Source: Salinibacter ruber DSM 13855 (GTDB lineage Bacteria; Bacteroidota; Rhodothermia; Rhodothermales; Salinibacteraceae). From it: 64,000 bases of DNA. Under the pieces are notes generated by a model. It was not told where the DNA came from and ran no database searches. It saw nothing but the letters and a program-made list of their open reading frames with translations. A program made the translations under genes and the position numbers. This document shows, in pieces, positions 30,272 to 45,819 of this stretch (the stretch's first letter is position 1; each line of letters starts with the position of its first letter). The stretch is from the NCBI RefSeq assembly GCF_000013045.1, contig NC_007677.1, forward strand, positions 2,666,001 to 2,730,000, in the 5' to 3' direction.

Positions 30272-33200
30272 TTAGAAGCTCAGGTTCACGCGGAAGGTAT
30301 ACTGGCGCTGAGGCGGAATCTGGGCCGACTCGACACCCTGAACATTCCCGGCCCCGAGCGTGACCGAAGGGTCGATGTTGGGGGCCTCTTTGTAGAGGAA
30401 CATCAGGTTGCTGCCAGTAAGGGACACACTGGCCCGCCGGAGGGCAAAGTCGTTAAACCAGCGCTGCGGGAGGCTATAGGTGATCGCCAGCTCCTGCAGC
30501 TTGGCGTGCGTCGCGTCGTAGATGAACTGATCGCCTCCGCCCGCGGAGAACCAGTTCTTCCAGTAACTCGCCGCCGGAATGCGCCCCACGGCCTCGCCGA
30601 AGTCTGTGCCCTCGACATCGTAGTTGCCATTTTCGTTTGGGGTGGCATCATCCACCACAACGCCTTCCGGGATGACCCCGGTTTCACGCTGATTGTCGGC
30701 GACCGTCGACTCCACAAGCCCACTGTAGGTCCCGAACTTGTTGGAGAGGGAGTAGACGTCTCCGCCCACCTGCCCGTCGACGACGGCACTGAGCGTGACG
30801 CCCTTGTAGGACACCGTGGTCGACAGCCCCCCGGTCCAGTCCGGCTGGAAGTTCCCCACGACCTGCGGACTGTTCGTCGTCTGTGGAACGCCGTTTCGCT
30901 GGAAGACCACGTCGCCGCTCGCGTCGCGGCGCAGGGACGGCTGCACCATCGCCCCGTAGGCCTTTCCTTCTCGGGCCTGAATCGTGGGCCCGAAGATCAC
31001 TCCTCCCGCAGTCAGGTTGTAGGTGTCCAGCCCCTCGGCCAAGTCAACGACCTTGTTCACGTTTTTGTTGAAGTTGGCCGTCACGTCCCACTGCAGATCC
31101 TCTTGCAGAACCGGCGTCACCGTCAGGCTGGCCTCCAGCCCTCGGTTCGACACCTCCCCGGCGTTGATAAGGGACGATTCGATGCCGGAGGCGCCCGAGA
31201 CATCCACCGCGAGGATCTGGTCCTTCGTCACGTCGCGGTAGTACGTCGTGCTCAGGTTCACCCGCTCGTTGAAGAAGCGCAGGTCCGCACCGAATTCGAT
31301 GCCCGTCGTCCGCTCCGGCTTCAGGTCCGGATTGTTGGCCGACCGCTGCACGTTCTGAAGGGCTTGCCCCTGGAAGGGAGTACTGCCCGGGTACGTTACG
31401 CCGAGACGATACGGATCAGTGTCCTGCCCGACGCGGGCCCAACTTGCCCGCACCTTTCCGAACGACAGGATGTCCTGGTCCTGAAGCGCATCCAAGCCCG
31501 TGAAGATCAGATTCCCCGAGATTGACGGGTACAGGTACGAGTTGTTGTCGGCCGGGAGCGTGGACGACCAGTCGTTTCGGAGCGTCCCCTCCAGGAACAC
31601 GATGTCCTGGTAGCCCAGACTCACAAGCCCGTACGTGCTGTAGACCATGCTTTCCTGGAACGTCTCCTCCACGGCGGGTCGGCCGACAGAATTCTGGAGC
31701 GTGAACACGTTTGGTGAAGCAAGACCGTTCTGAGTCGAGCCCAGGTTTTGCTCGTAGGTCTCGTACCGCACTTTCCCGGCCACGAAGGAGGTCAGGTCCA
31801 CCTGATCCGTCAGCGACCGCGAGTAGTCAAACCGGAGCGAGGAGCTTGTCTCCTGCTCTTCGATCACGTCCTCGCTGAAGGATCCAGGGGCTCCCGTGGA
31901 GATGTCGGAGCGGCGGTCGCTAAACCGGTGCGTCCGGAAGTCGGTGGTGACCGTAGCCGTTCCGGTCAGGTTCGGCACGATGTCGTAGGCCACCTCGGCC
32001 TTTCCGAGCAGGCGCTGCTCGTCGTCCTGCTGGAAGTTCGCGTACCGGTTCACGTAGGGGTTGTCGGTGTACTGGAACTGTGTCGCCGGTCCCTGTGCCC
32101 CCGAGACGCCGGCGTAGTTCCAACCGCGCTGCTGGCCGTTCGCGCGCTGGTAGTCGCGCATGTAACTGTCCGGCCCGTAGTCGAGCTGTCGTTGGGTGAA
32201 GGTGTTGAACGCAGCGAAGGGATTTTCCTCAAACCCATAGCCCATTCCGGACCGCGCCTTCACGTCCTGGTAGCTATACTTCGCGAAGGTCGTCGCCCGG
32301 AGGTCGTCGCTCAGGTCGACCGACCCGTTAAAGTTCACCTGGTAGCGGTCCATCGAGCCGTTCGGCATCACGCTGCCCTGGTTGCGGCTGGTGAGCCCCA
32401 ACCGGTAGTTCAGCGACTCGGTCTGCTGCGACAAGGCGACGTTGTTGGTAAACACTGCCCCCGTATCCATAAAGTTCTCGATGGCGTCCGGGTGAGCCTC
32501 CCAGGGGGTCGCCTCTCCTTCAAGCCCGTTCACGTCGTCCCAACTGTACCACTGCCGGACCGGGCGCCCGTCCAGGCGCGGCCCCCAGGACTCGTCCACG
32601 GCGTACTGCACGACGTACTGATCCCCGTCCGGCTTCTTGAAGTCCCCGTCCAGGGTCGAGAACGTGGAGCTCGGCGCGCCGCCACCGTACCTGTTCTGGT
32701 AGTCCATGAACTCGTACGCCTGGCTCATGCTGACGCTGGAGGAAAACGAGACCCCGATCTCATCGTCGAGATTCGATCCGTCCTTGGTGGTAATCTGAAT
32801 CACCCCGTTCGCGCCCCGGGATCCATACAGCGCCGCGGCCGACGGGCCCTTCAGGACCGAGACCGATTTGATGTTGCTCGGGTTGAGGGACGAGGCGGCG
32901 TTTCCGAAGTCAAACCCACCGTTTCCCTCCACGGTGCCCCCGCCGCTCTGGCGCGAGCGGTTGGAGACCACAATGCCGTCGACCACGATGAGCGGCTGGT
33001 TGTCGCCACTGATCGAGCTGTAGCCGCGCAGGACGATGTTCGAGGACCCGCCCATCGTGCTGGATGATCGGATGTTCGCCCCGGACACCTTCCCGCGCAG
33101 GGAGTTGACGAAATTGGCGTTGTCCGTGGCGTCGAGGTCCGCCCCGGACACCTGCTGCACCGACGACGAGACGGCGCGCTCCTCGCGCTCCACGCCCAAG

Positions 33201-33550
33201 GCCGTCACCACAACGTCCTCAAGGCCGACTGCCTGAGGCGCCAGGCGCACGTTCACAGTCGTCGTTTCGCCGGCCTCCACCTCCACCGGGATGTTCTTCC
33301 GGGTGTACCCGACGAAAGACGCCTGGAGGACCTGCTCCCCGGCCGGCACGCCGGAGATTTCGAACTGTCCGTTCGGCCCGGTCGCGGCCCCAATGTTGAG
33401 GCCCTGGACCGTCACGTTGACGCCCGGGAGGGTCTGGGAGGTGGTGCTATCGATGACGGTGCCCGAAACGGTACCGGTGTCTTGGGCCAGTACAGTTGCC
33501 GGGAGCAACAGCAACAGACCTGCAAGCACAGATAGTAGCTTTCGAAACAT
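30272..33550 (-). CDS. SusC/RagA-family TonB-linked outer-membrane transporter (cluster 1)
   Basis: This 1092-residue protein (ATG 33550) has a signal peptide (LLSVLAGLLLLLPATVLAQ), a carboxypeptidase-regulatory-like domain with the SusC pattern PGVNVTVQGLNIGAATGPNGQFEISGVPAGEQ, and a plug with LRGKVSGANIRSS, VLRGYSSISGDNQPLIVVDGIVV, and SVLKGPSAAALYGSRGANGVIQITTKDG. The barrel ends in the aromatic FRVNLSF. It forms the channel for the adjacent SusD lid. An upstream in-frame extension to 33673 is non-coding in character. The 5' leader is long (more than 150 nt to the nearest promoter-like motif). Confidence 0.93.
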   Translation of the reverse strand: MFRKLLSVLAGLLLLLPATVLAQDTGTVSGTVIDSTTSQTLPGVNVTVQGLNIGAATGPNGQFEISGVPAGEQVLQASFVGYTRKNIPVEVEAGETTTVNVRLAPQAVGLEDVVVTALGVEREERAVSSSVQQVSGADLDATDNANFVNSLRGKVSGANIRSSSTMGGSSNIVLRGYSSISGDNQPLIVVDGIVVSNRSRQSGGGTVEGNGGFDFGNAASSLNPSNIKSVSVLKGPSAAALYGSRGANGVIQITTKDGSNLDDEIGVSFSSSVSMSQAYEFMDYQNRYGGGAPSSTFSTLDGDFKKPDGDQYVVQYAVDESWGPRLDGRPVRQWYSWDDVNGLEGEATPWEAHPDAIENFMDTGAVFTNNVALSQQTESLNYRLGLTSRNQGSVMPNGSMDRYQVNFNGSVDLSDDLRATTFAKYSYQDVKARSGMGYGFEENPFAAFNTFTQRQLDYGPDSYMRDYQRANGQQRGWNYAGVSGAQGPATQFQYTDNPYVNRYANFQQDDEQRLLGKAEVAYDIVPNLTGTATVTTDFRTHRFSDRRSDISTGAPGSFSEDVIEEQETSSSLRFDYSRSLTDQVDLTSFVAGKVRYETYEQNLGSTQNGLASPNVFTLQNSVGRPAVEETFQESMVYSTYGLVSLGYQDIVFLEGTLRNDWSSTLPADNNSYLYPSISGNLIFTGLDALQDQDILSFGKVRASWARVGQDTDPYRLGVTYPGSTPFQGQALQNVQRSANNPDLKPERTTGIEFGADLRFFNERVNLSTTYYRDVTKDQILAVDVSGASGIESSLINAGEVSNRGLEASLTVTPVLQEDLQWDVTANFNKNVNKVVDLAEGLDTYNLTAGGVIFGPTIQAREGKAYGAMVQPSLRRDASGDVVFQRNGVPQTTNSPQVVGNFQPDWTGGLSTTVSYKGVTLSAVVDGQVGGDVYSLSNKFGTYSGLVESTVADNQRETGVIPEGVVVDDATPNENGNYDVEGTDFGEAVGRIPAASYWKNWFSAGGGDQFIYDATHAKLQELAITYSLPQRWFNDFALRRASVSLTGSNLMFLYKEAPNIDPSVTLGAGNVQGVESAQIPPQRQYTFRVNLSF

Positions 33551-34111
33551 AAGTCGGCTCGGGGATGGATGAACAACGGAGTGCACGTAGGTCGATCGGA
33601 GGCGGCAGGGAGAGGGAGGGCTTCTCCTGAACGCTCTCGAACCGGCCTTGTCTGGGCCGGCCTCTCCCAACAACGTCCGCCGCCTTCAGACGAAGGTTTG
33701 CTGTAGAGCGTGTGACCTTAACATTACGCTTCCCAATGTGGGCCTCTCGGCCCGGAATGTCAAGAGATTCCCAATTTGCAAAGCATACCGTAACACTCGG
33801 GGCGCGCCCGACACGTGAAGTAATTTCCCATTCCTCAACAGTGGGTTCTTTACCGCACAAAACTTTATTCTGGTGCCGCATTCCCCCAGTTGCGTCAGTG
33901 GTTCTTGGGGCGTGGGGCCCAACACAGCCGGTGTGCACTCGTGGGGCTCCGGTTATACCTTCCCGCCGACAACCGTGCGGATTGGCTCATACTGTGGATT
34001 GTCTCATGCTGTGTGTCCTCAGTATTCAGCACATGATTCAGACGGACCGGTCCATGCGGCAAAGCAATGAAGGGCACTAATGTTGGAGGTTCGCTTACTG
34101 TCATCACTCAC
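33551..34111. other. 561-bp leader region upstream of susC cluster 1
   Basis: No gene is convincing here. On the minus strand the string TCTCTTGACATT ends near 33757; the same 12-mer occurs upstream of susC of cluster 2. Directly beside it GGGCC-TCTC-GGCCC (33741-33754) forms a perfect 5-bp inverted repeat that could be an operator. AT-rich patches lie near 33825-33870. Promoter and operator roles are inferred. Confidence 0.4.
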
Positions 34112-34459
34112 CTACCTCTTCCCGGGCCGCCAGCGGTGCGCGTCGAGGTCCACCTGGTCTTCGGCCACGAACGTGACCCCTTCGCTGCGCAGCCGCTCCG
34201 CCATCACATGGGGCGTTTCGAAGTGGCGCCGGCCCGTCAACACCCCGTTGCGGTTCACCACGCGGTGGCAGGGCAGGTCGCCCCCCACCGCGTCCTTCAG
34301 CGCCCAGCCCACGATCCGGGCCGCCCCCCGCCGCCCCAGGTGCGCGGCGATGTCGCCGTAGGTGGTGACGCGGCCCACCGGAATCTGCGCGACGACACGC
34401 CAGACGGAATCATAGAACGAAGACGGCGGGTTGATACTCCCCATCGGTATTTGGGACAA
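34112..34459 (-). CDS. MGMT-like DNA-alkyl-guanine protein, copy A (chimeric)
   Basis: The 115-residue protein is the C-terminal, DNA-binding type of O6-alkylguanine-DNA alkyltransferase: VVAQIPVGRVTTYGDIAAHLG with the helix-turn-helix, then the reactive-site motif PCHRVVNRNG. Small relatives with W in place of Cys are alkyltransferase-like (ATL) proteins; here the cysteine is kept, so methyl transfer is possible. Positions 34125-34396 match copy B (42842-43113) with one mismatch, while the first about 21 codons differ abruptly. It sits beside the low-GC GWxTD gene, 20 bp downstream of it. Confidence 0.8.
   Translation of the reverse strand: MSQIPMGSINPPSSFYDSVWRVVAQIPVGRVTTYGDIAAHLGRRGAARIVGWALKDAVGGDLPCHRVVNRNGVLTGRRHFETPHVMAERLRSEGVTFVAEDQVDLDAHRWRPGKR
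34125..34396. repeat. 272-bp direct repeat, copy 1 (MGMT-like core)
   Basis: This segment is identical to 42842-43113 except G at 34142 versus A at 42859. Both ends are sharp: beyond them the two genes encode different residues. The offset is 8717 bp. Confidence 0.95.
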
Positions 34460-34479
34460 ATTTCTCCGGACCTTCGGCT

Positions 34480-36675
34480 TTAGCGGCCACCCTCAGAAGG
34501 TGTCAGCGTGAGTGAAATGGAGCGCTCAATCTCATTGCCCGTCACGTTGTCGGTGACCCGGACGGTCACCTGCGTCGACTGCGGCCGCTTTGGATCTGCC
34601 TCCAGGTCCAGGTCCAGCTGAAGATACTCTTCAGTTCGACGTTTCCGACCAGTATACTCGGCAGTCGTGCTCGTGACTTCCGTATTCGTATCGTCCCCGA
34701 AGAGGCGTCCCAAAAATCCTTTTCGGGTTTGCCGACGTGCCTCGTAGGTAACAGTATAGCGCGTCTGTCCCTGCGCCGATTGGCCCAAGTGATAGATCTC
34801 AAAATATAAGAAGAGCGGCGTTTGGGGGGGGACGGTGTCGTACGGGTACGGTACCGTCTTCTGAAGGATCGAGCCCCCCTCGTCCCGTACCGACGGTGGG
34901 ACCGACATCAGGCGGAGATCGCTCATCTCCAGCTCAGAGGCGTCCGCTCGAAGGGGCTGCAGCGTATCCACCCGTGCTGCAAACATGCCCAGACGCTGGC
35001 CTGCTGGCCTCCGGGGCTCTTCCCTGGAGCGCCAGTCCCACTGAAGAGAAAGATGATGTGTATCTCTCCCTCCATTCACGACCGTACGCTGGGGCGCCGT
35101 TCCCTCCCACCCATCACCTATAATCTGATCTCCACTGTACCCTCGTGAAACCTGACCCAGCCGACGATACTGGGAGCCGTGCCGAACGATCGTCATCTCC
35201 ACTCCGGTGGAGGAGTCCGCATCCGCAAAGGGCCCAGTGCGGCCTCCCCAGTACACCTCGGTCCGCGTGGTCCCTTCCCGGCCCAAAAACCGTGCAACGC
35301 GGTATTCGACCGGCAGACGCTGGCCCACCTCGCCAGCCGGCGAATGTGTCCGGGGCATTTCGCGGGTGCGCCGACGGGAGAACTGGCGTTCCTGATTTCT
35401 AACATTACTTATACTGGCAGTCGCAGCGGAGGATGGGTATCCCTTTTCAGGTCCGCTTCCCCCGAACACACGCCGAGCCCCTGGTCCAAATCCAATTTCA
35501 CGCCCCCCCTGTTTACCAGACAGATCGCTGATTCTACGACGGGATGCCTGGTAAGAAAACCATCCGTTTAACTTCGACAGCGTGTTTCCTCGGTCATGAT
35601 ACTGCAATGAAAGCTGACTGTACACGTACCGGAGCGCCGCCATGGAGGAGTAGGCTACGTTTTGCTGCCGATTCCCTGGCCCGAAGGGTCCTTGGAGGGG
35701 AGCCGGAAGAAGTTCCAGGGCTGTCGAGAGCTCAAACTCATCCCGTTTCTCATTTCTAACGAAGAGGTACTTTCCAGAGGAGCTGAGTGCCGGGTACTTC
35801 CAGATCACATTTCTAGGAAAATCCGATCGACTTACCGGGACTCCGGAGCGGACCACCTCTGAGAGAAACCCCATGTCGTCGAACTTGATGCTGTACTTCT
35901 GATCGGGCCGACCGTATCGCACGTACACGTCTCCCCGATCATCCCATCCTGCAATCCGCCGCTGCGAAGCAAATTTTTCGACGGCTCTGTCTACCCTACG
36001 CAAATGTTCTTCCGCACGCTCGTTCTTCTCCGTTTTTGGGACAGGGTCTTGTCGACGCCACCAGGTCAAAAGCCAAAGGCCGGCACCTTTTCGAAAAGCC
36101 CAACCCTCAGGAGATGAGCTGCTACCACGCACTACGTGCTTTCCAAGCGTTTCGTCGCCCACGAGAGGCCTGAGCTGAGCTACGACCTCCCGTAGTACTG
36201 CTTGTGTTTTGGATGGAAGATCCGGGCCCACACGGCGGAGAAGGCGGAAATAAAGTTCGGTCGCCTCTAGTGAGGATTCGCTATGCGGACTCACCATCTG
36301 GGACAGATAGAAGTCGAATAACCGGGCATCAAAGTTATCGTGCTTCAGAATAGCCCGTGTGCCCGTCCTCGCAGCCCAGTTCGAAGAATCTGTATGACCA
36401 GTTTTCTGGTACGACAAGGCCAACCAATACGCAACGCTTCCTTGCTTTCCCGTAAGTGAGCGATCAGCCGTGAAAGTTCTTCTTAATTGGCCTTGAGCTC
36501 GCGCGTATTCTCCCCTGTGATACGCAGCGATACCCTCTCTGTACTGTTTCTTTAGGGAGTCATCAGGTGCAGATAGAACCAACGGGGAGAATACAGTCAG
36601 AACGTAAGACAGACAGAAAAGAGCCAAGCCGTCTGTGAGATGGATATAGGAGAACACTCGTCGAGCGACTCGCAC
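34480..36675 (-). CDS. GWxTD domain protein, large variant
   Basis: The 731-residue product begins at GTG with a hydrophobic segment (LALFCLSYVLTVFSPLVL) and a TPR-like region (YREGIAAYHRGEYARAQGQL). The central GWDDRGDVYVRYGRPDQKYSI matches the core of GWxTD proteins (Bacteroidota/Chlorobi family of unknown role), where TDRGriyiryG.Pd is typical. A second, beta-rich half follows. The gene is clearly lower in GC than the flanking chromosome and uses more A/T-ending codons, consistent with acquisition. It is cotranscribed at most with copy A of the MGMT-like gene. No function is assigned to the family that I can support. Confidence 0.7.
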   Translation of the reverse strand: MRVARRVFSYIHLTDGLALFCLSYVLTVFSPLVLSAPDDSLKKQYREGIAAYHRGEYARAQGQLRRTFTADRSLTGKQGSVAYWLALSYQKTGHTDSSNWAARTGTRAILKHDNFDARLFDFYLSQMVSPHSESSLEATELYFRLLRRVGPDLPSKTQAVLREVVAQLRPLVGDETLGKHVVRGSSSSPEGWAFRKGAGLWLLTWWRRQDPVPKTEKNERAEEHLRRVDRAVEKFASQRRIAGWDDRGDVYVRYGRPDQKYSIKFDDMGFLSEVVRSGVPVSRSDFPRNVIWKYPALSSSGKYLFVRNEKRDEFELSTALELLPAPLQGPFGPGNRQQNVAYSSMAALRYVYSQLSLQYHDRGNTLSKLNGWFSYQASRRRISDLSGKQGGREIGFGPGARRVFGGSGPEKGYPSSAATASISNVRNQERQFSRRRTREMPRTHSPAGEVGQRLPVEYRVARFLGREGTTRTEVYWGGRTGPFADADSSTGVEMTIVRHGSQYRRLGQVSRGYSGDQIIGDGWEGTAPQRTVVNGGRDTHHLSLQWDWRSREEPRRPAGQRLGMFAARVDTLQPLRADASELEMSDLRLMSVPPSVRDEGGSILQKTVPYPYDTVPPQTPLFLYFEIYHLGQSAQGQTRYTVTYEARRQTRKGFLGRLFGDDTNTEVTSTTAEYTGRKRRTEEYLQLDLDLEADPKRPQSTQVTVRVTDNVTGNEIERSISLTLTPSEGGR

Positions 36676-36945
36676 TTAAGTTCAGCAGTACCTGAGTAGT
36701 GAGTACCCTGCCCGTCTTATTTTATTAAAAGTATTGGTATGAAAATTAATTTTTTATTGTGTATACTATTTAGCACAATGCATTTTCAAATAACTTTCAG
36801 TTCGCATTAACTCTTGAATTTTTGTTTTTATGCACCTATCTATCAAACTGGTTTTCATATTAAAAGCAGATATGACCGCAGTTGTTAAATCAACTGCGGT
36901 CACATCTCTGCCTTGAAATACGCCTATCTTGTGAGGCAGGAGCTG
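36676..36945. other. Very AT-rich intergenic segment
   Basis: These 270 bp between the GWxTD gene and the cluster-2 lipoprotein gene are the most AT-rich part of the window, especially about 36715-36865, with runs such as TTTTTTATTG and TTTTTGTTTTTATG. The segment contains the terminator hairpin at 36873-36902 and probably the promoter of the GWxTD gene. I find no small gene in it. Confidence 0.5.
36873..36902 (-). terminator. Terminator of SusCD cluster 2
   Basis: TGACCGCAGTTG (36873-36884) and CAACTGCGGTCA (36891-36902) form a perfect 12-bp stem with a 6-nt loop. On the minus strand it is followed by TATCTGCTTTTAAT. It lies 43 bp beyond the lipoprotein stop codon, as expected for a Rho-independent terminator. 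Confidence 0.8.
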
Positions 36946-37485
36946 CTAGTTTGTGACAGTGACCTCGAAATATCGGAAGTTCTCCGCGACCTCAATATCA
37001 GAGTCAGGATTCGGCTCCAGACGCAGTGTTACCCGCTCAGTGGTGTCGGGGTCTGAATTGGGAAGGGCATCTCCAATTTCAACCTCAAAGGTGACATTGC
37101 TAGTGTCCTGCGGAAATGAAACCTCACTCGGAACAGTGTATTCGCCGGACTCAGCAGTAGTCGGGTCTGCCCGAACATCGACAACGGTCGTGTCGGTCCC
37201 GTCTCCTTGCGGCACCTGCCGCTCGCGAAAAGCAGTATCTGTCTGAACACTCACACCAACCGAAAAGCTTTCGCCGCGCTGGAGGCCGATAAGCTGAACA
37301 GGAACTGAGACGCTCGAATTCGGTCCATCTGAGACGGTTGCACCGAACTCACCGGTCTGTTGGTACTGACTGAATCCCACACGATCAGGACCATCGTAAG
37401 GACCTGAGACCTCCTCAAAACATCCCGTCAGTATGAGCACGGAAGCGACTGTCAGTGCGAGCGGCGTGTAGTATATTTTCTTCAT
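36946..37485 (-). CDS. Lipoprotein of SusCD cluster 2, beta-sandwich (Calx-beta or DUF4843-like)
   Basis: The 179-residue product has lipobox LILTGC followed by an acidic beta-rich domain: VGFSQYQQTGEF, SVSVPVQLIG, FEVEIGDALPNSDPDTTERVTLRLEPN and a final strand FEVTV. The arrangement resembles Calx-beta/DUF4843 lipoproteins that accompany SusCD pairs as accessory surface-exposed proteins. It is the last gene of the unit and is followed by a strong terminator. Its GC is low like its neighbours. The family match is by eye and tentative; the lipoprotein call is firm. Confidence 0.65.
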   Translation of the reverse strand: MKKIYYTPLALTVASVLILTGCFEEVSGPYDGPDRVGFSQYQQTGEFGATVSDGPNSSVSVPVQLIGLQRGESFSVGVSVQTDTAFRERQVPQGDGTDTTVVDVRADPTTAESGEYTVPSEVSFPQDTSNVTFEVEIGDALPNSDPDTTERVTLRLEPNPDSDIEVAENFRYFEVTVTN

Positions 37486-37544
37486 GAGTCCAATATCTAG
37501 TGTTGATAGAGGAAAGGGTGAGACAAATCTCGAACGGTGCCCAC

Positions 37545-37567
37545 TGGGAGAGTCCTGCCCTCTCCCA
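37545..37567 (-). promoter_or_regulatory. Intercistronic hairpin between susD and lipoprotein gene (cluster 2)
   Basis: TGGGAGAG (37545-37552) pairs perfectly with CTCTCCCA (37560-37567) around a 7-nt loop, 22 bp after the susD stop. No T-run follows on the minus strand, so a stability or processing element is more likely than a full terminator. Confidence 0.55.
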
Positions 37568-37589
37568 ACGAGACCGATATCGCAGTGAG

Positions 37590-39068
37590 CTAATAGCCTG
37601 GGTTTTGCTCAATGGCCGTGTTGGACTGCACCTCTCCAGTCGGGATCGGAGCAAGGATCTTGAATGACTCACGGTCACCGCTGTACTCAAGGACAGTATC
37701 GGTCCTCTGTGGCTTCGGGATATCCATTCCGTATCGCTTGAGGGTAAAGAACCGTTTTCCTTCAAAGAGAAACTCACGGCGGCGCTCTTCAAGGATAGAA
37801 TCAAGCAATGATTGGCCTGTGATTCCAGTGAGTGGACTCAGTCCCCGTCGGACGCGAATGTAGTTTAGATCCGACCTTGCTTCATCCGGCTCGCCTTGAT
37901 GATATCGGGCCTCCGCACGGTTCAAATACAATTCTGCGACCCTCAAGAGAGGAATCCGGTCGGTGAAGTTCCCAATTGTACCGGTGTACTTTTCAAGATA
38001 TGTATTTCCAAGACTATCGGGTGCAAACAGATCGGTTCGCGCATCGTCCGATGTGAAGATTGACTTCACGTCGTCTGACGGCAGTACTTCATAGGCGAAA
38101 GCACCCGTGCCATCACTGCGTCCTCCATCCGTGAGCGATTGAAGGGCCTGGTTGGAGTTCGTGGCATCTCCGTCGGTTCCCGTCGTCATGGACAGCTCAA
38201 ATACAGACCCCGGATAGGAGGACGCCTCCCATGCATCCTGAAAGCTAGTGCTTGTTGCATCCACAACTTCGGCGCTAGTGAGACCAAGAGCCGCAGTAGC
38301 AGCTGAGTCGGCCTTCTCCCAATTCTGTCGATACAATTCCACACGGGAGAGCAGACCGAACGCGGCGGCAGCAGTGGCTCGCTGCGGGGGAGATTTCGCA
38401 TTTGAATTTCCTTCCAGAAGATACCCCGAAGAACGAATGTCCGCGGCAGCCCTTGAGAAAACCGCAGTGTTTGGAGCACGAGGCTTTTCGTCAGCAGCGC
38501 CCGGTGAGCGGGTCGGTTCCGTTCGAAGAGGAACCCCGAGAGAAAAGCCGCCTACCTCCTGCCCTGGTGTATAGCCGTAAACGCGGGCGAGGTCGAAGTA
38601 CGCCATTCCACGGAGGAACAAGGCTTCACCTCGGATCCGATCCCGAATGTCTTGCGCGACTGACGGATCACGATCAAGAGAGAGGCTTCCAATATCCTCA
38701 ATGATGTTGTTGGCCTCATTAATCGTCGAGAAGTACGCTCCGTACCCCCCAAGGTGCTCAAACCGTCCGTTTGATACAAATCCGGGATACCGATTCGAGG
38801 TGGCTCCAGGTCGGAGCTTCACATTGTCTGCCAGCGCATCCGGGACGAGCATATACTGCTGACCGTACAGACCGAAGCTCTGAAGACGGTCATACATGCT
38901 GGTGACAAGTCCCTCAAACCCAGCTTTCGACTCTATAGTCTGCTGCAAAGAAATACTGTTGGTCGGCTGGGCTTCGTCGAGATCCGCCTGATCGCAGGCG
39001 GACAAGCCAAAAGCCAGTATCGCTACTGACAATACCCCTATGAAGCGTTTAAGAAAGAAATCGTGCAT
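37590..39068 (-). CDS. SusD/RagB-family outer-membrane lipoprotein (cluster 2)
   Basis: The 492-residue product (ATG 39068, MHDFFLKRFIGVL) has lipobox LSAC, a SusD N-terminal region (LQQTIESKAGFEGLVTSMYDRL), INEANNIIEDI and RGEALFLRGMAYFDLARVYGYTPGQE, the classic SusD TPR-like signature, and a C-terminal LNRAEARYHQGEPDEARSDLNYIRVRRGL with ILEERRREFLFEGKRFFTLKRYG. It is the lid of the SusC channel encoded upstream. It belongs to the main SusD/RagB class, unlike the SusD-like_2 type of cluster 1, so the two clusters probably take different ligands. Confidence 0.93.
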   Translation of the reverse strand: MHDFFLKRFIGVLSVAILAFGLSACDQADLDEAQPTNSISLQQTIESKAGFEGLVTSMYDRLQSFGLYGQQYMLVPDALADNVKLRPGATSNRYPGFVSNGRFEHLGGYGAYFSTINEANNIIEDIGSLSLDRDPSVAQDIRDRIRGEALFLRGMAYFDLARVYGYTPGQEVGGFSLGVPLRTEPTRSPGAADEKPRAPNTAVFSRAAADIRSSGYLLEGNSNAKSPPQRATAAAAFGLLSRVELYRQNWEKADSAATAALGLTSAEVVDATSTSFQDAWEASSYPGSVFELSMTTGTDGDATNSNQALQSLTDGGRSDGTGAFAYEVLPSDDVKSIFTSDDARTDLFAPDSLGNTYLEKYTGTIGNFTDRIPLLRVAELYLNRAEARYHQGEPDEARSDLNYIRVRRGLSPLTGITGQSLLDSILEERRREFLFEGKRFFTLKRYGMDIPKPQRTDTVLEYSGDRESFKILAPIPTGEVQSNTAIEQNPGY

Positions 39069-39163
39069 GAATTTTCGAATCGTTGGGCCGTGAGAGTTAA
39101 GGAGTTGCATAATACGTCGTGCTGTCCAGTTGTTACGCAGGGAATAGAGGAGGGGGGATGAGA

Positions 39164-39191
39164 CTGGCCCCACATCCAGACGTGGGACCAG
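39164..39191 (-). promoter_or_regulatory. Intercistronic hairpin between susC and susD (cluster 2)
   Basis: CTGGCCCCAC (39164-39173) pairs with GTGGGACCAG (39182-39191) with one wobble around an 8-nt loop. It starts about 30 bp after the susC stop, the same relative place as the cluster-1 hairpin, though the sequences differ. Confidence 0.6.
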
Positions 39192-39220
39192 CCTGAGTGC
39201 CCGCGAGCAGTTGGTCGCGA

Positions 39221-42200
39221 TCAGAGACCGAGATCGAGACCAGCAGTCAGTGTACGAGCCTGTGGGTAGTTCCCCAATCCTGTGCCGACCAGCTCCGGGT
39301 CCGGACCGGTGTAGTTGGTCCAGGTCGCGAGGTTCGACCCCTGCACGAAGACCGTGACATTTCGGAGAGATCCGACCGTCTCGGTTAGTGACTTCGGCAG
39401 GGTGTAACTCACCTTCACCTCCTTCAGACGGATGTAGGACGCGTTCTCCACAAATCGCGTGGTGAAGATGCCAGGATCAGTTCCATCGGCATATGTGTCC
39501 AACCCACTCGCCAGAAGGGAGCCAAACGCTGCTGGACTCTCCGTCACGTCTCCCGGCTCTTTCCACCGGTTTTCAACGAGACGCTCTGCCTTGTTGTACG
39601 GGAAGTAGCCCACGTCCGCAAAAAACCGGTCGTTGTTGAGGGTTTTTCGACCGTAGTCGTACTGGAAGAACGCAGAAACCTGGAGTCCCTTGTAGGAGAT
39701 CGTGTTGCCGAACCCCCCATAGAAATCTGGCTGCAGGTTCCCAATCAGCTTCTCGTTATTGGTATCATTCCCCACGTATGTCAGATCGCCGTTCGCATCC
39801 AGGTACATGGGCCGACCATTCGCCGGGTTTGCCCCTGCGTAGCGTGTGTATCGCAACTGCGCGGCCGGTTCTCCCACGCGATACACGTCTCCTCCAGATG
39901 TAACCTCGTCGTCGCCCGGCAAGAGACTTCGAACCTCCGTGCGCTGGAACGAGATATTGAAGTTGGTCTCCCAGGTAAGGCCGTTCCAGTCGTTCAGGTT
40001 GATGGTTGACACGGAGAAGTCAAGCCCCTCGACACGGATTTCTCCAACATTGTCAAGGTAGCTTCCGAAACCACTGTCCAGCGATAGATCACGGAAGAGA
40101 AGGAGCTCTTCCCGATCATCGCGGAAGACATCAACTGAACCAGTGATTCGTCCCCCGAAGAAGCCGTAGTCAAGCCCGACGTTTGTAGAAACCTTCTCCT
40201 CCCACGTCAACGAAGGGTTTCCTAGCGCAGTGGGGCGGATTCCGGGCGTTCCGTTGTACTCGCCTGACCCGCTGAATTGCTGACGTGATTGGAAGTTGTC
40301 GATGTCACTATTTCCTGTAACTCCGTAGCTGGCACGCAGCTTCAGGTTCGAGATCACGTCGGTATCTTCGAGAAAAGACTCATTGGAAATGCGCCAGAAC
40401 CCACTCACAGTTCCAAAAATCCCAGACTGATTATCAACTCCAAAGCGGGAGTTAGCGTCTCGGCGCAGCGTCCCTCCGATCTGATAAGTATTATCGAAGG
40501 TGTATGTGGCGTTCCCAAAGTAGCTGATCTGACGGTACTGAGTTGAGAAACTGGACACATCCGTCGGATTGGCCGCCGAGGCAAGCGTCCGGAAAAGCTC
40601 GTTGGGAAAGCCCTCGCCGCTCCCCGAAGTAAACTGCTCACGATTCCGCTTTATCTCAGCTCCTGCCAGTGCGGATATGGTGTTCACACTCGCAAATGTA
40701 TTTTCGTAGCTAAGCGTCTGTGAGACGTTGAAGGTGATGTCTCGCTGTGTACTGTTAAAACCCTCACCTCCAAAGCCAGCGTTCGGCGGAAGTCGTGGGT
40801 CCCCGTAATCAAATTCTTTCGTATCGACGTACTGAACTCCGGCGTACGTCCGTGCTGCAAATTCAGCAGGGAGATCCCAGTTGGCTGTTACATTCGAGGT
40901 AATGGTATTCGCCGAGGACTCTCGGGTATTAAATTTCTCTTGGGCTACTGGATTGTAGCTAAATGTCGAGTTCGGCGTTAGGTTTAAGGCAGTGCTCGGA
41001 TCCCCTGGGGTGGTGTAGACTGGAGATGTCGGAGGAATGTTGTAGGCCGCCCAGAACGGACTGTTGATGAACGCACCGTCCGAGATCGTTCCTTGATATC
41101 GGGTTGTCGACAGGTTCGTTTTAGCGGAAAGATTCAAGAAGTCCGCCGGCTGGTGATTCAAATTCAGGCGGAGTCCCCCCCGGCGAAAATTCGAGTCAAT
41201 GACCTGCCCCTCATCTCTGGTGAAGTTCCCAGAGATGTAAAACTGTGTGTCGTCACTGCCTCCACGCAGAGAGAGGTTATATGATTGAGTGAAACCTTCC
41301 CGGAAGACCTGGTCCGTCCAGTCGGTGTTAATGCTGTCGGGTCCGAAGGCGCCGTTAACGATAGTCTGCGGATCACTACCGAAAGCCACGGAGGCAGGGA
41401 GTCCAAAATTTTCACGTGAGGCATTATCAAGCGCCTCAGCCCGAAAGTTTAAGTACTGCTCGGAGTCCATCACCCCATACGGCTCGATGTTGCTTACACT
41501 TCCAAGCTTGGTACTGAAATTAATCTGTGTATCGCCGGACCTTCCCTCCTTCGTCTCAATGACGACTACTCCGTTAGCAGCCTGCGCACCGTAAATCGAT
41601 GCAGCAGCCGCGTCCTTGAGAACCTGGATCGACTCAATGTTGCCCGGGTTGATTGTAGAAAGGGGGTTTCCATTAGCCAAATCCAGGTTGTTTTCCTTAT
41701 TGATTTGCACGCCATCAACGATGTAGAGTGGATCGCTTCCTGCGTTAACCGAGAGTGCTCCTCGCACCTGAATGCTGAATCCGGATCCCGGCTGCCCACC
41801 GAGGCTGGTTACCCGAACGCCAGAAGCGCGCCCCTGAAGTGCCCCCTCCGCACTCGTCAAATCAGCCGTCTCGATGCTTTCACCGCTGACTGTAGCATCA
41901 GCCCCCGTCGCCACCCTATCTGTTTCTGGTCGATAGGCCGAGACAGTCACCTCTTCCAGCTGGGCCTCACCCGTTTGAAGCTGGAAATTTACCCGAACCG
42001 TGCCCCCTTCCGGTACATTGACGGTTCGCTCCTGTGCTTGGTATCCGACAAATGATACTCGGAGGGTTTGTTCGCCCGTGGGGACTCCGGCAATGCGGTA
42101 CTGGCCCTCGGCGTCGGAGGCCGCACCACTCCCCTCGTCCACAATTTGAACGGTAGCCCCCGGCAACGGGTTGCCGGTCTCCGCCTCCGTCACCGTGCCG

Positions 42201-42286
42201 GTCACGGTTCCCTGCTGGGCCCACGCCAGCCCCGGAAGGAGCAGAAGGGCGAGTCCGAAAACAACGCTTGGTATCAGTCGCTTCAT
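39221..42286 (-). CDS. SusC/RagA-family TonB-linked outer-membrane transporter (cluster 2)
   Basis: This 1021-residue protein has a signal peptide (VVFGLALLLLPGLAWAQ), a carboxypeptidase-regulatory-like domain (GNPLPGATVQIVDEGSGAAS, RVSFVGYQAQE), the short linker LEEVTVSAYR, a plug with LQGRASGVRVTSLGGQPGSG, IQVRGALSVNAGSDPLYIVDGVQIN, and IQVLKDAAAASIYGAQAANGVVVIETKEG. The barrel ends TLTAGLDLGL. It transports the substrate bound by SusD of this cluster. The first about 100 codons look GC-rich and native-like, while the rest drifts toward lower GC, which may reflect a mosaic gene. Confidence 0.93.
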   Translation of the reverse strand: MKRLIPSVVFGLALLLLPGLAWAQQGTVTGTVTEAETGNPLPGATVQIVDEGSGAASDAEGQYRIAGVPTGEQTLRVSFVGYQAQERTVNVPEGGTVRVNFQLQTGEAQLEEVTVSAYRPETDRVATGADATVSGESIETADLTSAEGALQGRASGVRVTSLGGQPGSGFSIQVRGALSVNAGSDPLYIVDGVQINKENNLDLANGNPLSTINPGNIESIQVLKDAAAASIYGAQAANGVVVIETKEGRSGDTQINFSTKLGSVSNIEPYGVMDSEQYLNFRAEALDNASRENFGLPASVAFGSDPQTIVNGAFGPDSINTDWTDQVFREGFTQSYNLSLRGGSDDTQFYISGNFTRDEGQVIDSNFRRGGLRLNLNHQPADFLNLSAKTNLSTTRYQGTISDGAFINSPFWAAYNIPPTSPVYTTPGDPSTALNLTPNSTFSYNPVAQEKFNTRESSANTITSNVTANWDLPAEFAARTYAGVQYVDTKEFDYGDPRLPPNAGFGGEGFNSTQRDITFNVSQTLSYENTFASVNTISALAGAEIKRNREQFTSGSGEGFPNELFRTLASAANPTDVSSFSTQYRQISYFGNATYTFDNTYQIGGTLRRDANSRFGVDNQSGIFGTVSGFWRISNESFLEDTDVISNLKLRASYGVTGNSDIDNFQSRQQFSGSGEYNGTPGIRPTALGNPSLTWEEKVSTNVGLDYGFFGGRITGSVDVFRDDREELLLFRDLSLDSGFGSYLDNVGEIRVEGLDFSVSTINLNDWNGLTWETNFNISFQRTEVRSLLPGDDEVTSGGDVYRVGEPAAQLRYTRYAGANPANGRPMYLDANGDLTYVGNDTNNEKLIGNLQPDFYGGFGNTISYKGLQVSAFFQYDYGRKTLNNDRFFADVGYFPYNKAERLVENRWKEPGDVTESPAAFGSLLASGLDTYADGTDPGIFTTRFVENASYIRLKEVKVSYTLPKSLTETVGSLRNVTVFVQGSNLATWTNYTGPDPELVGTGLGNYPQARTLTAGLDLGL

Positions 42287-42825
42287 CGGTTTGGACTGTC
42301 TCTGTGAGTAATCTATCTGAGGGTCTCAAGCAAGAAAGCTGGGGCGCAGGGCGTCTCGCCCTGCCGCACTCCAGGTGGCCGCTCAACGGAAAGCGCCGAA
42401 AGGCAGCGGCGGTGCGCCTGAGTGGTTCCGCTGTCTCTGTGCACACCACTTAACACTGCTTCAGGCAGAACTTCTAGCGGTTCTTGTCTAGCGATAATCC
42501 AATGTTAATCGCCGTGGAGACAATGTCAAGAGACGGGCCGCAGCCCTGAGGACGCCCCGGCACGCCCATTGCGGGGCTTTCCCCTCCAAATCCCCGCCTC
42601 ACGCCCGCCCTCCGCCATCAGACTCCAGTTCCGAACCGGAGTGGAGGTCACTTTAATTAACTATTTATTAATTTAATAGATACAATAGCGTTCAGCCTGT
42701 CGGCTTCACGACAGGGGTGGCCGGTCTGGGCCCGCCCTTCTCGTGCCGGATCCCCGAGGGATGCAGGGAAGTGGGCCCTTCACGGCGCTCTTGGCCCATC
42801 GACGCGTTGAGCGGCCGCCCCCGGC
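42287..42825. other. 539-bp leader and spacer upstream of susC cluster 2
   Basis: No gene is evident. The susC-proximal half is GC-rich. A promoter-like pair lies at 42502-42529. A strongly AT-rich patch (about 42650-42690, TTTAATTAACTATTTATTAA) marks the island edge. Downstream of it the sequence returns to high GC just before the MGMT-like copy B. Confidence 0.5.
42502..42529 (-). promoter_or_regulatory. Candidate promoter of susC cluster 2
   Basis: On the minus strand TTGACA (42529-42524), a 16-bp spacer and TAACAT (42507-42502) form a sigma-70-like pair, within the longer string TCTCTTGACATT also found upstream of susC cluster 1. The leader to the start codon would be about 210 nt. Whether this organism's sigma-A uses such boxes is unknown. 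Confidence 0.4.
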
Positions 42826-43164
42826 CTACTCCGCCTCCCCCGGCCGCCAGCGGTGCGCATCGAGGTCCACCTGGTCTTCGGCCACGAACGTGACCCCTTC
42901 GCTGCGCAGCCGCTCCGCCATCACATGGGGCGTTTCGAAGTGGCGCCGGCCCGTCAACACCCCGTTGCGGTTCACCACGCGGTGGCAGGGCAGGTCGCCC
43001 CCCACCGCGTCCTTCAGCGCCCAGCCCACGATCCGGGCCGCCCCCCGCCGCCCCAGGTGCGCGGCGATGTCGCCGTAGGTGGTGACGCGGCCCACCGGAA
43101 TCTGCGCGACGACGGCCCAGGCCCGCTCGAAAAACGACTCGTCCGAATCGGAATGCGCCTGCAT
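42826..43164 (-). CDS. MGMT-like DNA-alkyl-guanine protein, copy B
   Basis: The 112-residue protein has the same VAQIPVGRVTTYGDIAAHLG and PCHRVVNRNG blocks as copy A. Its N-terminus reads MQAHSDSDESFFERAWAV, acidic as expected for the halophilic host, and its surroundings are high-GC, so this looks like the resident copy. The reactive cysteine is present. The start at 43164 is preferred over an upstream ATG at 43212, which would add a Cys-rich stretch (GPCLSCDTPGC) that might be real but is unusual. It is divergent from murB. Confidence 0.8.
   Translation of the reverse strand: MQAHSDSDESFFERAWAVVAQIPVGRVTTYGDIAAHLGRRGAARIVGWALKDAVGGDLPCHRVVNRNGVLTGRRHFETPHVMAERLRSEGVTFVAEDQVDLDAHRWRPGEAE
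42842..43113. repeat. 272-bp direct repeat, copy 2 (MGMT-like core)
   Basis: This segment pairs with 34125-34396 with a single mismatch (A at 42859). The two direct repeats bracket about 8.4 kb that carries the GWxTD gene and SusCD cluster 2. Confidence 0.95.
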
Positions 43165-43455
43165 CGTACAGCCGGGTGTATCACACGACAAGCACGGGCC
43201 GGACACCGACATCTTTCGTCAGGCCCTGGTGATTTGTACGCGCCCTCGTCGCGGTCCTTCCGATCGGCGGCCCCGAGGGCCGGGCTGGGGGCTTGGGCGC
43301 CCCGTCGATAAACCAACAAGAAACCAGTGTTGGCCGGACGTTTGGGAAATTTCTTGGATGCCGGGTCCCGAGAGTGGATTTATTGTCGATCTCCCACGTA
43401 CTATGGCCCAAATGCAAAAAAGTCATATTCTCTCGTTTTCGCCCTTCACCCCCTC

Positions 43456-44484
43456 GTGACCCCTTCCTCCCCGCCGGCAAACGCGCTTCGTGCGACGCTC
43501 GGCCCCGATCGGCTGCGCCGGGACGTCCCCCTGGCCCCGTTCACCACCTTCCAACTCGGCGGGACGGCCGACTGGTACGCCGACGTGCGCTCGGCCGACG
43601 AGCTGGCCGCAGTCACGCGGACGGCCCGGACGCACGACGTCCCCTACTTTCTGCTCGGCACCGGGGCCAACGTGATCGTCGGCGATCGCGGGTACCGGGG
43701 CCTCGTCATCCACAACCGGGCCCGCGCCCTCCAGGTCGATCGCGACACGAATCGCGTTTGGGCCGAGAGCGGGGCCGTCGTGTACCCCGACCTCATCGAA
43801 CGCGCCGTCTCGGCCGGCCTCTCGGGGTTGGAGCACTACGTGGGCATTCCGTCGACCGTGGGCGGGGCGCTCTGGCAGAACCTGCACTTTCTCTCGCCGC
43901 CCCCCGACCGGGCCCGAACGGTGTTCTGGGACGAGGTCGTCCACTCCGCCGACATTCTCACCGAAGAGGGGGAGCGCAAAACGGTGAGCGCCGACTATTT
44001 CGACTTCGACTACGACTACTCGATTCTCCACGACCGGGACGACGTGGTGCTGGCGACCACCTCCCAACTCGAACCGGGCGATCCGGAGCGGATGCGCGAG
44101 ATCATGGACGCCAACCTGCAGTGGCGCGCCGAGCGGCACCCGCCCCTGGACACCGAGCCGAGCGTGGGGTCGATTTTCAAGAAAATCGAGGGGGTCGGCG
44201 CCGGGCGCCTCATCGACGAGTGCGGGCTGAAGGGCGCGCGGATTGGGGGGGCGATGATCACCCACCGCCACGCCAACATTTTCGTGAACGTGGACGGCGC
44301 GCGAGCGGCGGACGTGTGCGCCCTGATCGACCTGGCCCGCGACACCGTAGAGCAGGAGACCGGCTACCGCCTGGAGACGGAGATCGACTTCATCGGCGAG
44401 TTTGCCCCGCCGACCGACGCGGAGCCGACGTTCGTCCCGAAGGACCCCGACCTCGTGACGGCGGCTGATCGGGCACGCGCGTAA
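43456..44484 (+). CDS. murB: UDP-N-acetylenolpyruvoylglucosamine reductase
   Basis: The 342-residue product has FTTFQLGGTADWY, the FAD-binding LLGTGANVIVGDRGYRGLVI, GLEHYVGIPSTVGGALWQN and the catalytic-serine segment SVGSIFKK, followed by GLKGARIGGAMITHRHANIFVN. MurB reduces UDP-GlcNAc-enolpyruvate to UDP-MurNAc in peptidoglycan synthesis. No ATG fits; the GTG at 43456 gives a start just before the conserved region, while the open frame upstream to 43327 has a composition unlike coding DNA. An insertion sequence lies 81 bp after its stop, so any transcription continuing downstream would be interrupted. Confidence 0.93.
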   Translation: MTPSSPPANALRATLGPDRLRRDVPLAPFTTFQLGGTADWYADVRSADELAAVTRTARTHDVPYFLLGTGANVIVGDRGYRGLVIHNRARALQVDRDTNRVWAESGAVVYPDLIERAVSAGLSGLEHYVGIPSTVGGALWQNLHFLSPPPDRARTVFWDEVVHSADILTEEGERKTVSADYFDFDYDYSILHDRDDVVLATTSQLEPGDPERMREIMDANLQWRAERHPPLDTEPSVGSIFKKIEGVGAGRLIDECGLKGARIGGAMITHRHANIFVNVDGARAADVCALIDLARDTVEQETGYRLETEIDFIGEFAPPTDAEPTFVPKDPDLVTAADRARA

Positions 44485-44565: not shown

Positions 44566-45819
44566 CTGGCTACCGGACAGTTTTTCGAATCCCTGCTAAA
44601 GTAGAAGAAGGCCGTTGCCCTCGGCGGACAGACCGTTGAGGTTGTGGTGAGCCAATCACCGAACCTCCCGTTCCAGCCCGCCAATGAGCAACAGCCTTCT
44701 CATCCAACGTAAAATGGAGTCGACGCTTTCCCAACTGCTTCCCGAGGCGCTGGCTACCCGGCGCCGCGCTCTGGCACAGATGATCACCGGATTGCATCTG
44801 GCCGAGCATGTTCATCTTTCGAAGGTGGCCGGTCGGATTGCTGGGACGGCCCAACTGGAAAGCAAGACGCGCCACTTGCGGCGATTTCTTGGAAACGAAA
44901 ACGTTGATCCTGAGCGATTCTACAGCCCGGTTCGAGACCGCCTGATTGAGTGGGCGGCCCAGGGAGCAGAAACGCAGGGGAGCGGCCCGATTCGACTTCT
45001 GGTCGACACGGTGGAGCTTTCCGGAGAGCGGCAGGTGCTTATGGCTGGGATTGCTTATCGCCGAAGAGCCCTTCCGATCTGCTGGGAAACGTACCGACGG
45101 GAAGGAGTCACGAACGCTGAGCAGCAGATATCCCTGCTCAAAGCGCTTGTGGGCCGGTTTCCCGACGAAGCAGAGGTTGTGGTCGTAGGCGACGGGGCGT
45201 TTCATTCCACTGATCTGATGGACTTTATAGAGGATCAGGGATGGCATTTTTGCCTGCGGCTCCACGCAGACACCTACATCCGCTCCTTCAAAGATTCCTC
45301 CAAAGGCTTTCCCAAGGAAGGGACCTGGAAACAGCTTCGAGATCTGGTTCCGGAGGAAGGAGAACGACGATACCTGCAAGACGTCATCGTGACGAAAGAC
45401 AACGAATACGGCCCCGTGGGTCTCGCCCTTTGCCAAGCCGAAGATGAGGACGATCCGTGACTGATCTGTACCGACCGGGAAGCCAGCTACGCAACGATCC
45501 GCACTTACAGCCGCCGGATGTGGATCGAACAGTTGTTTGCGGATTTGGAAGACGGAGGCTTCCATTTGAACCGGAGCCGGATCTATCCACCAGAGCGGCT
45601 CTCGCGGCTGGTGATGGCTCTTTCGTGGACGTACGTCTGGCTCCTGCATGTCGGTGCATGGATGGTCAAGCGGGGCTTTCGGTCAAAGGTCGACAGAACT
45701 GGTCGTCGAGATCGAAGCTACGTGGAGCTCGGGCGGCGGTGGCTTCAGCGGTGTTTGACCAATCAGATTCCTCTCCGAATCGGAATCCGGCCCTATTTCT
45801 GAAGCTGTCCGGTAGCCAG
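44566..45819. mobile_element. IS4-like insertion sequence, 1254 bp
   Basis: CTGGCTACCGGACAG (44566-44580) and its perfect reverse complement CTGTCCGGTAGCCAG (45805-45819) are terminal inverted repeats. They are flanked by 9-bp direct target duplications and enclose one transposase reading frame. The perfect duplication indicates a recent insertion, between murB and a toxin-antitoxin pair. Confidence 0.9.
44684..45802 (+). pseudogene. IS4-like DDE transposase interrupted by an in-frame TGA
   Basis: The reading frame of 373 codons carries LLVDTVEL (first acidic residue), VVVGDGAFHS (second), and RRMWIEQLFADLEDGGFHL, the conserved Y/M-x-x-E-x-LF region with the catalytic glutamate. Codon 259 (TGA, 45458-45460) interrupts it, and the frame continues unchanged on both sides: DDP-stop-LICTDRE, where related transposases have tryptophan. 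A TGG to TGA change explains it. The protein would lose its catalytic glutamate domain, so transposition would need readthrough (the next base is C, a leaky context) or another copy acting in trans. Confidence 0.8.

Follow-up and report, generated by a model that had tools for sequence, protein, structure and literature searches.

Two near-identical MGMT-like genes in a proposed SusC/SusD receptor slot of Salinibacter ruber: likely gene conversion and a possible route of module exchange

Within the 64,000-nucleotide stretch of Salinibacter ruber DSM 13855 analysed here (the window; contig C1, NC_007677.1, positions 2666001-2730000, of a two-contig genome of 3587328 bases, G000), two MGMT-like genes, A and B, are almost the same over 272 bp and diverge abruptly outside it. 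A gene for a GWxTD-domain protein and a pair of SusC/SusD receptor genes, together called the S module below, lie between them. How did the two genes come to be so alike in one part and so different outside it, and what does this imply for the receptor genes that they bracket? We argue, with a probability of about two in three, that A is the end gene of a receptor module held in a slot between murB and a conserved SusC gene (SusC1), that part of B was copied into A, and that modules of this slot would be exchanged by recombination through both of their ends. Other genomes and loci are cited by G and L numbers. The two genes and their common tract are as follows.

34112..34459, minus strand: MGMT-like copy A, end gene of the S module (PF01035, 87.3 bits; module position as in locus L136)
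42826..43212, minus strand: MGMT-like copy B, adjoining murB (PF01035, 84 bits; protein 96.7% identical to that of G005 over residues 7-126)
34125..34396, minus strand: putative conversion tract in copy A (271/272 identical to 42842-43113; 1 synonymous difference in 270 bases)
42842..43113, minus strand: the same tract in copy B, the probable donor (5' flank of B colinear with the G005 ortholog)

The repeat is exactly as the preliminary description of this DNA gave it: the match covers the full 272 bp, the sole mismatch is at 34142 versus 42859, and divergence sets in abruptly on either side. In a wider frame the copies form a 300-bp direct repeat that is 95% alike, and besides A and B the genome yields just one weak tract match, of 33 bp. 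Both genes read on the minus strand; an alternative ATG start at 34444 is possible for A. Over the 270 coding bases A and B differ by the one synonymous change, whereas B differs from its ortholog in G005, the nearest relative searched, by 14 synonymous and 1 nonsynonymous changes, and from that in G002 by 16 and 7. Set against the divergence from G005, near-identity at synonymous sites cannot be explained by chance or by selection on the protein. The idea that purifying selection kept the two alike draws on the wide distribution of the protein, present in 106 of the 114 genomes of the order, but is refuted by one difference in 270 bases against the 13-17 synonymous differences that separate A or B from the G005 and G002 orthologs; extra copies, moreover, decay in relatives, and we give this idea next to no credence. 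An assembly artefact, with one copy of the repeat overwriting the other, has a negligible chance as well. Short repeats can collapse in assemblies, but this genome is in two contigs, each copy has unique flanks of its own, and one base sets the copies apart; Sanger or long reads are also longer than the 272 bp of the repeat. Since A and B are less diverged from each other than B is from its G005 ortholog, the copying would postdate the split from that relative.

The surroundings of the tract bear on what was copied into what. The 5' flank of B is colinear with the single G005 gene, and the core of B has diverged from G005 by an ordinary between-species amount. The 21 codons of A ahead of the tract differ from those of B, yet remain MGMT-like: of 109481 nine-residue segments in a six-frame translation of the window, 15 score as high as SSFYDSVWR of A, including that segment itself and its counterpart in B. 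Being divergent but still MGMT-like outside the tract, A appears to have been a diverged copy already, over which the tract was laid. A near-identical tract with abrupt ends inside diverged paralogs is the signature by which gene conversion is recognised, and it is found here. Judged from the sequences, a recent, partial conversion from resident B to divergent A, as had been proposed at the outset, is the likely explanation and fits best. A tandem duplication of a SusC/SusD-MGMT unit followed by divergence, with A and B alike because only the end gene was duplicated recently, has a parallel in G001: its two tandem P-type modules, with SusC 83% identical between them, both have an MGMT copy behind them (81% over 257 bp). 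A fresh copy of B would not, however, keep the divergent MGMT-like codons that A has outside the tract, and we consider such a history improbable.

The identity could also have reflected an old region under selection, if all relatives carried both copies and the copies were equally similar in each, as the preliminary description itself pointed out. Among the other 12 genomes of the genus compared (13 with our own, one genome per species), eight have one real match to the tract, two have none, and G001 and G002 have a second copy; the second matches in G004 and G005 are just 33-36 bp. Overall, 11 of the 13 genomes possess the MGMT-like gene. The second copies of G001 and G002 are decayed: the one in G001 is frameshifted (193 bits) and 81% identical (257 bp) to the intact copy of its own genome, and of the two remnants in G002 one is cut at its 5' end (107 bits; 85% over 156 bp) and one strongly decayed (52 bits; 72% over 72 bp). 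A control of 112330 bases, leaving out L042, L047, L048 and L061, which lie in or beside the slot, returned zero matches in the same search. Extra end genes would then decay in the two relatives having them, and A would have been refreshed.

In the relatives, the neighbourhood of these genes lies between two conserved anchors. SusC types are designated by letters of our own (P, Q, R, S, T, U, and X for SusC1).

43327..44484, plus strand: murB, right anchor of the slot (PF02873; present in 13/13 genomes of the genus)
30272..33550, minus strand: SusC1 (X), left anchor of the slot (92-97% identical in G001, G002 and G005)
33551..33800, minus strand: conserved block upstream of SusC1, approximate left limit of the slot (homology among G000, G001, G002 and G005 ends about 215-295 bp before the start of X)

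Read leftwards from murB, our genome has B, the S module (SusC, SusD, a small protein, the GWxTD protein), A and X. The order is P, MGMT, R, X in G005; P2, MGMT, P1 with GWxTD and MGMT remnants, X in G001; MGMT, R, an MGMT remnant, T, another MGMT remnant, X in G002; Q, P, MGMT in both G003 and G004; Q, MGMT, U, X in G011; and Q, MGMT, X in G012. There are seven module arrangements on the murB side of these eight genomes, all of which hold SusC/SusD modules there, and module types turn over from species to species. Elsewhere in the genus, murB is adjoined by a T-type SusC/SusD pair in G006 and G010 and by a broken P pair in G007. We read the stretch from murB to SusC1 as a receptor slot that would hold modules in one direction, in the order susC-susD-(small protein)-(GWxTD gene)-MGMT. 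Our genome would then have one full module, S, ending in A, beside B, and B would be the end gene of the P module of relatives, P being missing here.

The S module itself comprises the following.

34480..36675, minus strand: GWxTD-domain protein (TIGR04514, 48.4 bits, cut-off 28)
36946..37485, minus strand: small lipoprotein-like protein, named by eye from its N-terminus (33% identical to the small protein of the G005 R module)
37590..39173, minus strand: SusD (PF07980, 100.6 bits, cut-off 23.1)
39221..41974, minus strand: low-GC body of SusC (whole gene TIGR04056, 716.4 bits, cut-off 368.25; GC 0.54)
41975..42286, minus strand: susC leader, i.e. signal peptide and N-terminal domain, limit approximate (alike across the SusC types of the slot)

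SusC and SusD are adjacent and both above cut-off; the small protein has zero matches in Pfam or NCBIfam. The preliminary description had seen a low-GC block filling the space between the two MGMT-like genes, possibly an insertion bounded by them. Its lower GC stands (0.54 in the susC body, 0.52 at 36676-39220), but its limits do not: the leader has 0.62 and 41975-43212 as a whole 0.64, and the right limit of the block falls within susC, around 41975, rather than at B. An alignment of G000 with G005 (81% over 1380 bp) leads from before B across the intergenic DNA into the susC gene of S and R, respectively; susC identity falls to about half past codon ~100, and GC falls at the same point. Beyond the first two 50-codon windows, the body of this SusC is 0.28-0.66 identical in nucleotides to those of other types. 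An insertion through the MGMT gene, with B as its right border, is rejected on account of the G005 homology, which runs past B into susC, and is not required to explain the locus. Nor is it supported that the two copies bound an insertion, for A sits where the end gene of the SusC-SusD-GWxTD module sits in other genera.

Could S, with an MGMT gene of its own, nevertheless have come in recently, a Campbell-like crossover in the resident MGMT gene leaving the direct repeats? Such an arrival would agree with the low GC of S (GC at third codon positions, GC3, is 0.62 in its SusC versus 0.84 in SusC1 of the same genome, and 0.76-0.87 in SusC1 of four genomes), with the same gene order at L136 of genus g4, and with residues SSFYDSVW of A, which by eye resemble other genera as much as B of Salinibacter. 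Against it, the homology with G005 that runs from B through intergenic DNA into susC puts the right junction elsewhere than at B; across the 114 genomes of the order, SusC2 (the SusC of S) has no match closer than 59% identity, so that no recent donor is in hand; and the extra MGMT copies of G001 and G002 are old and decayed. We therefore regard a recent arrival as unlikely. Low GC3 recurs in other SusC genes situated between X and the intact MGMT gene (R 0.60 and 0.65, P1 0.62, T 0.64, U 0.69) and in P on the murB side of G003 and G004 (0.63-0.65), and GC3 is high in P of G005 (0.87) and P2 of G001 (0.81). Since it is found in slot SusC genes of several genomes, low GC is common in the slot and not the mark of one event.

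The region in which homology extends from B into susC brings out a further feature of the slot: its unrelated SusC receptors are alike in their first ~95 codons, a likeness that SusC genes elsewhere lack. For 74 slot pairs of different type, identity is 0.58-0.82 over 95 codons of leader and 0.40-0.55 in the bodies. Leaders of slot genes are 0.43-0.59 identical to those of 20 SusC genes elsewhere (280 pairs; the 20 are those listed for these genomes, among more) and 0.48-0.57 to those of SusC1 (84 pairs), and leaders of non-slot SusC genes within one genome reach 0.45-0.56 (21 pairs). Same-type slot pairs are mostly reversed, the leader exceeding the body in 3 of 17. At four-fold degenerate sites of shared residues, different-type pairs from the same genome agree at 90/185 positions in the leader versus 151/540 in the body (p 5e-7), and slot genes agree with other SusC genes at 292/916 leader positions. 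Two unrelated slot neighbours in G006 have leaders 0.90 identical over bodies of 0.45.

If A is the end gene of a module, the same association should be visible outside the genus, where 95 genomes have an MGMT match; the surroundings of 60 of these were fetched, largely by score order (946814 bases, many loci cut by contig ends). Controls were 40 stretches of 20 kb (800000 bases) at arbitrary round, hence non-random, positions in 25 of these genomes; they were used in place of TIGR04056 counts, which are unusable for SusC density with about six candidates scored per genome. A strong SusC (E < 1e-80 with a profile built from SusC genes of the genus) occurs at 20/60 MGMT loci against 1/40 controls (Fisher p 1.1e-4), in all 20 cases on the MGMT strand, and at 11/25 loci when the same 25 genomes are matched with the controls (p 4.6e-5); both p-values are generous, the genomes being related. 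The order SusC-SusD-large protein (GWxTD)-MGMT recurs at L120, L121 and loci of genus g33, and L136 has SusC-SusD-small-large (GWxTD)-MGMT, the very order of S. Variants are SusC-501 amino acids (no SusD match)-large-157 amino acids-MGMT at L137, MGMT directly before SusC at L158, L161, L164, L172, L175 and L176, and MGMT-large-SusC at L128 and L140. All ten MGMT-linked large proteins scanned contain a GWxTD domain, eight of them above cut-off. Different versions of the g33 locus have SusC, SusD and GWxTD genes that are 25-48% alike or without a match, whereas the flanking genes are about 75-93% and the MGMT genes 79-93% alike; that genus too, then, has a swapped block with the MGMT gene on one side.

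Individual receptor types can be followed in the same way. The best SusC matches among MGMT-linked loci of other genera are L158 for S (44%) and R (39%), L136 for Q (48%), L120 for P (44%), L132 for T (41%) and L123 for U (52%), and an S match in G063 is MGMT-linked as well (46%). In a whole-genome search, P-type SusC lies within 10 kb of the MGMT gene in 14 of the 23 genomes that possess this type outside the genus, and T-type SusC does so in 2 of 29. At 13-18 kb, a T-type SusC accompanies the MGMT gene in a further 9 genomes (eight of family f3 and one of family f13), each time on the same contig and strand, which suggests an older, wider receptor neighbourhood. The best U-type match is MGMT-linked in 2 of 5 genomes, both g33. 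G067 (genus g4) has two strong MGMT matches on contigs C269 and C336, with SusC genes on both, possibly a second case of doubled modules. The genes before MGMT in L146 and L145 (family f8; G041 and G043) are common by eye, and a SusC/SusD pair precedes MGMT in one of them, possibly a presence/absence difference at the same place. One scan of viral contigs for an MGMT-carrying virus gave 4 pattern matches, none a relative.

Several results weigh against the reading of the locus as a slot of exchangeable modules with B converted into A. One concerns the GWxTD gene of S. Its best blastp match (35%, 394 bits) is with a paralog found elsewhere in the genus, and MGMT-linked GWxTD genes of other genera give at most 32% and 237 bits; a quick tree places it without support (0.27). 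The comparison covered 10 paralog loci, of which L053, L055 and L058 were unused (longest frame, probably wrong); for the GWxTD remnant in G001, the closest sequence is the MGMT-linked gene of L120. Common descent of the S GWxTD gene with the MGMT-linked ones was tested and is not shown, the genus paralog being closer: S shares its gene order with other genera, and the descent of its GWxTD gene is unsettled. The best match of the S SusC outside the genus, in G074, is not MGMT-linked, and 40 of the 60 MGMT loci there are without a strong SusC. In g33, no sharp recombination break was found inside MGMT, and leader sharing is not apparent by eye. Within the genus the comparison is at species level only, no MGMT remnant turned up next to the G005 R module or the G011 U module, and in G006, G007 and G010 the MGMT gene stands apart from murB, with no SusC/SusD gene seen near it. 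The T gene of G006 does not share the leader, four-fold sites compared across genomes are weak (leader 882/2531, 0.35, versus body 2250/7719, 0.29), the S-T pair agrees at 16/43 of them in the leader, and protein constraint may add to the likeness. Finally, the single mismatch between A and B gives no direction, A having the G005 base and B that of G002, and the donor may have been an allele from another strain rather than B.

In the mechanism that we favour, the repeated end genes would have undergone homologous recombination once this lineage had separated from that of G005, and a stretch of A of no less than 272 bp would have been replaced by the sequence of B. Recombination of the same type would swap whole modules, pairing at the start of susC (its first ~300 bp) on one side and at the MGMT gene on the other; as the conserved end gene, the latter would serve as a recombination handle. 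Acting at the module ends, it could replace a body, convert an end gene, or lead to the gain or loss of a module; that the direct repeats recombine and so delete the module is a fair prediction. Presumably such exchange would depend on RecA, employ both ends in one event and be selected by diet or phage. That the locus is a place of receptor exchange in Salinibacter and related bacteria, the module ends kept alike within a genome by recombination and the SusC body swapped as a cassette, we hold tentatively, at somewhat less than an even chance. The result on the descent of the S GWxTD gene has lowered our confidence both in this cassette view and in the overall explanation.

None of the six called genes of 34.1-43.2 kb matches a recombinase family, overlapping and antisense reading frames not having been scanned and no dedicated search for an invertase having been made. 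Outside the block, an IS4-like transposase fragment at 44684-45460 (NF033591, 79.1 bits, below the cut-off of 152) sits between murB and an ADP-ribosylglycohydrolase gene, in a lower-GC patch at 44.5-46.5 kb; these two genes are about 60 bp apart in G002 and about 250 bp in G005. In G006, the murB neighbourhood (L071-L072, contig C4, ~1468000-1490000) contains stop-containing GWxTD fragments and three SusC genes, and the sole MGMT match of that genome is about 500 kb away.

SusC/SusD variation in Bacteroides reportedly arises by DNA inversion, so that outer membrane proteins are varied through recombination. The present locus would be similar in this respect, but differs in that the genes of the slot point in one direction, the repeats are direct and the changes are seen between species. 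A closer parallel is offered by replacement flexible genomic islands: different gene sets of similar function, there surface structures, occupy the same place, and are proposed to be exchanged by homologous recombination (Lopez-Perez et al. 2014, PMC4033161). Different gene content at one chromosomal place and similar function of all versions both hold here, the comparison being between species, whereas a further mark of such islands is variation among strains of one species with SNP peaks at the borders. Unlike those islands, the unit is a small receptor module, the homology lies inside its own ends, and several modules may stand in tandem (PMC4033161). S. ruber itself has flexible islands fGI-1 and fGI-2 with SusC receptors among variable cassettes (PMC6060240), and DSM 13855 has metagenomic islands at 249037-358080, 775936-845933 and 1360489-1403241 (PMC2800850). 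Our locus resembles these in its low GC and in SusC/RagA receptors interspersed among variable cassettes (PMC6060240, PMC2800850), but at 2.700-2.709 Mb it lies outside the three metagenomic islands (PMC2800850), and neither the module nor its end gene is named in the portions of the two accounts at hand (PMC6060240, PMC2800850). The locus is best filed as a variant of the replacement island with homologous module ends, and this variant is new.

The end gene fits no canonical class either. Alkyltransferase-like proteins (ATLs) have a single PF01035 domain without the N-terminal domain of alkylguanine DNA alkyltransferases (AGTs), and their active-site cysteine is usually replaced by tryptophan, whereas AGTs have PCHRV (PMC10779285). 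A and B, both above the Pfam cut-off of 27, are single-domain PF01035 proteins lacking the AGT N-terminal domain, as in ATLs, and both retain LPCHRVVN, with the cysteine of the PCHR(V/I) active site and the PCHRV motif of AGTs; being as short as an ATL but without the ATL cysteine replacement, they are canonical for neither (PMC10779285). From domain and motif content, the protein is probably an ordinary single-domain member of the alkyltransferase family, set apart from AGTs and ATLs in that genes of the A/B type are often near SusC/SusD and GWxTD genes. A literature search found no paper using the word GWxTD and, judged by listing, none describing an MGMT-SusC/SusD module.

What emerges is a candidate mechanism of SusC/SusD exchange: the slot is defined, either module end offers a possible sequence handle, and products can be seen, namely a converted end gene, decayed leftover end genes and swapped bodies. 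A small alkyltransferase-family gene and GWxTD proteins are also tied to SusC/SusD transport across an order. If cassette swapping is true, the body of a nutrient receptor, and with it perhaps phage sensitivity, would be exchangeable between a susC start and an end gene that remain in place. Ordinary homologous recombination, with no known invertase or integrase involved, would then swap the receptors, and this would bear on how these bacteria change their diet and perhaps escape phages.

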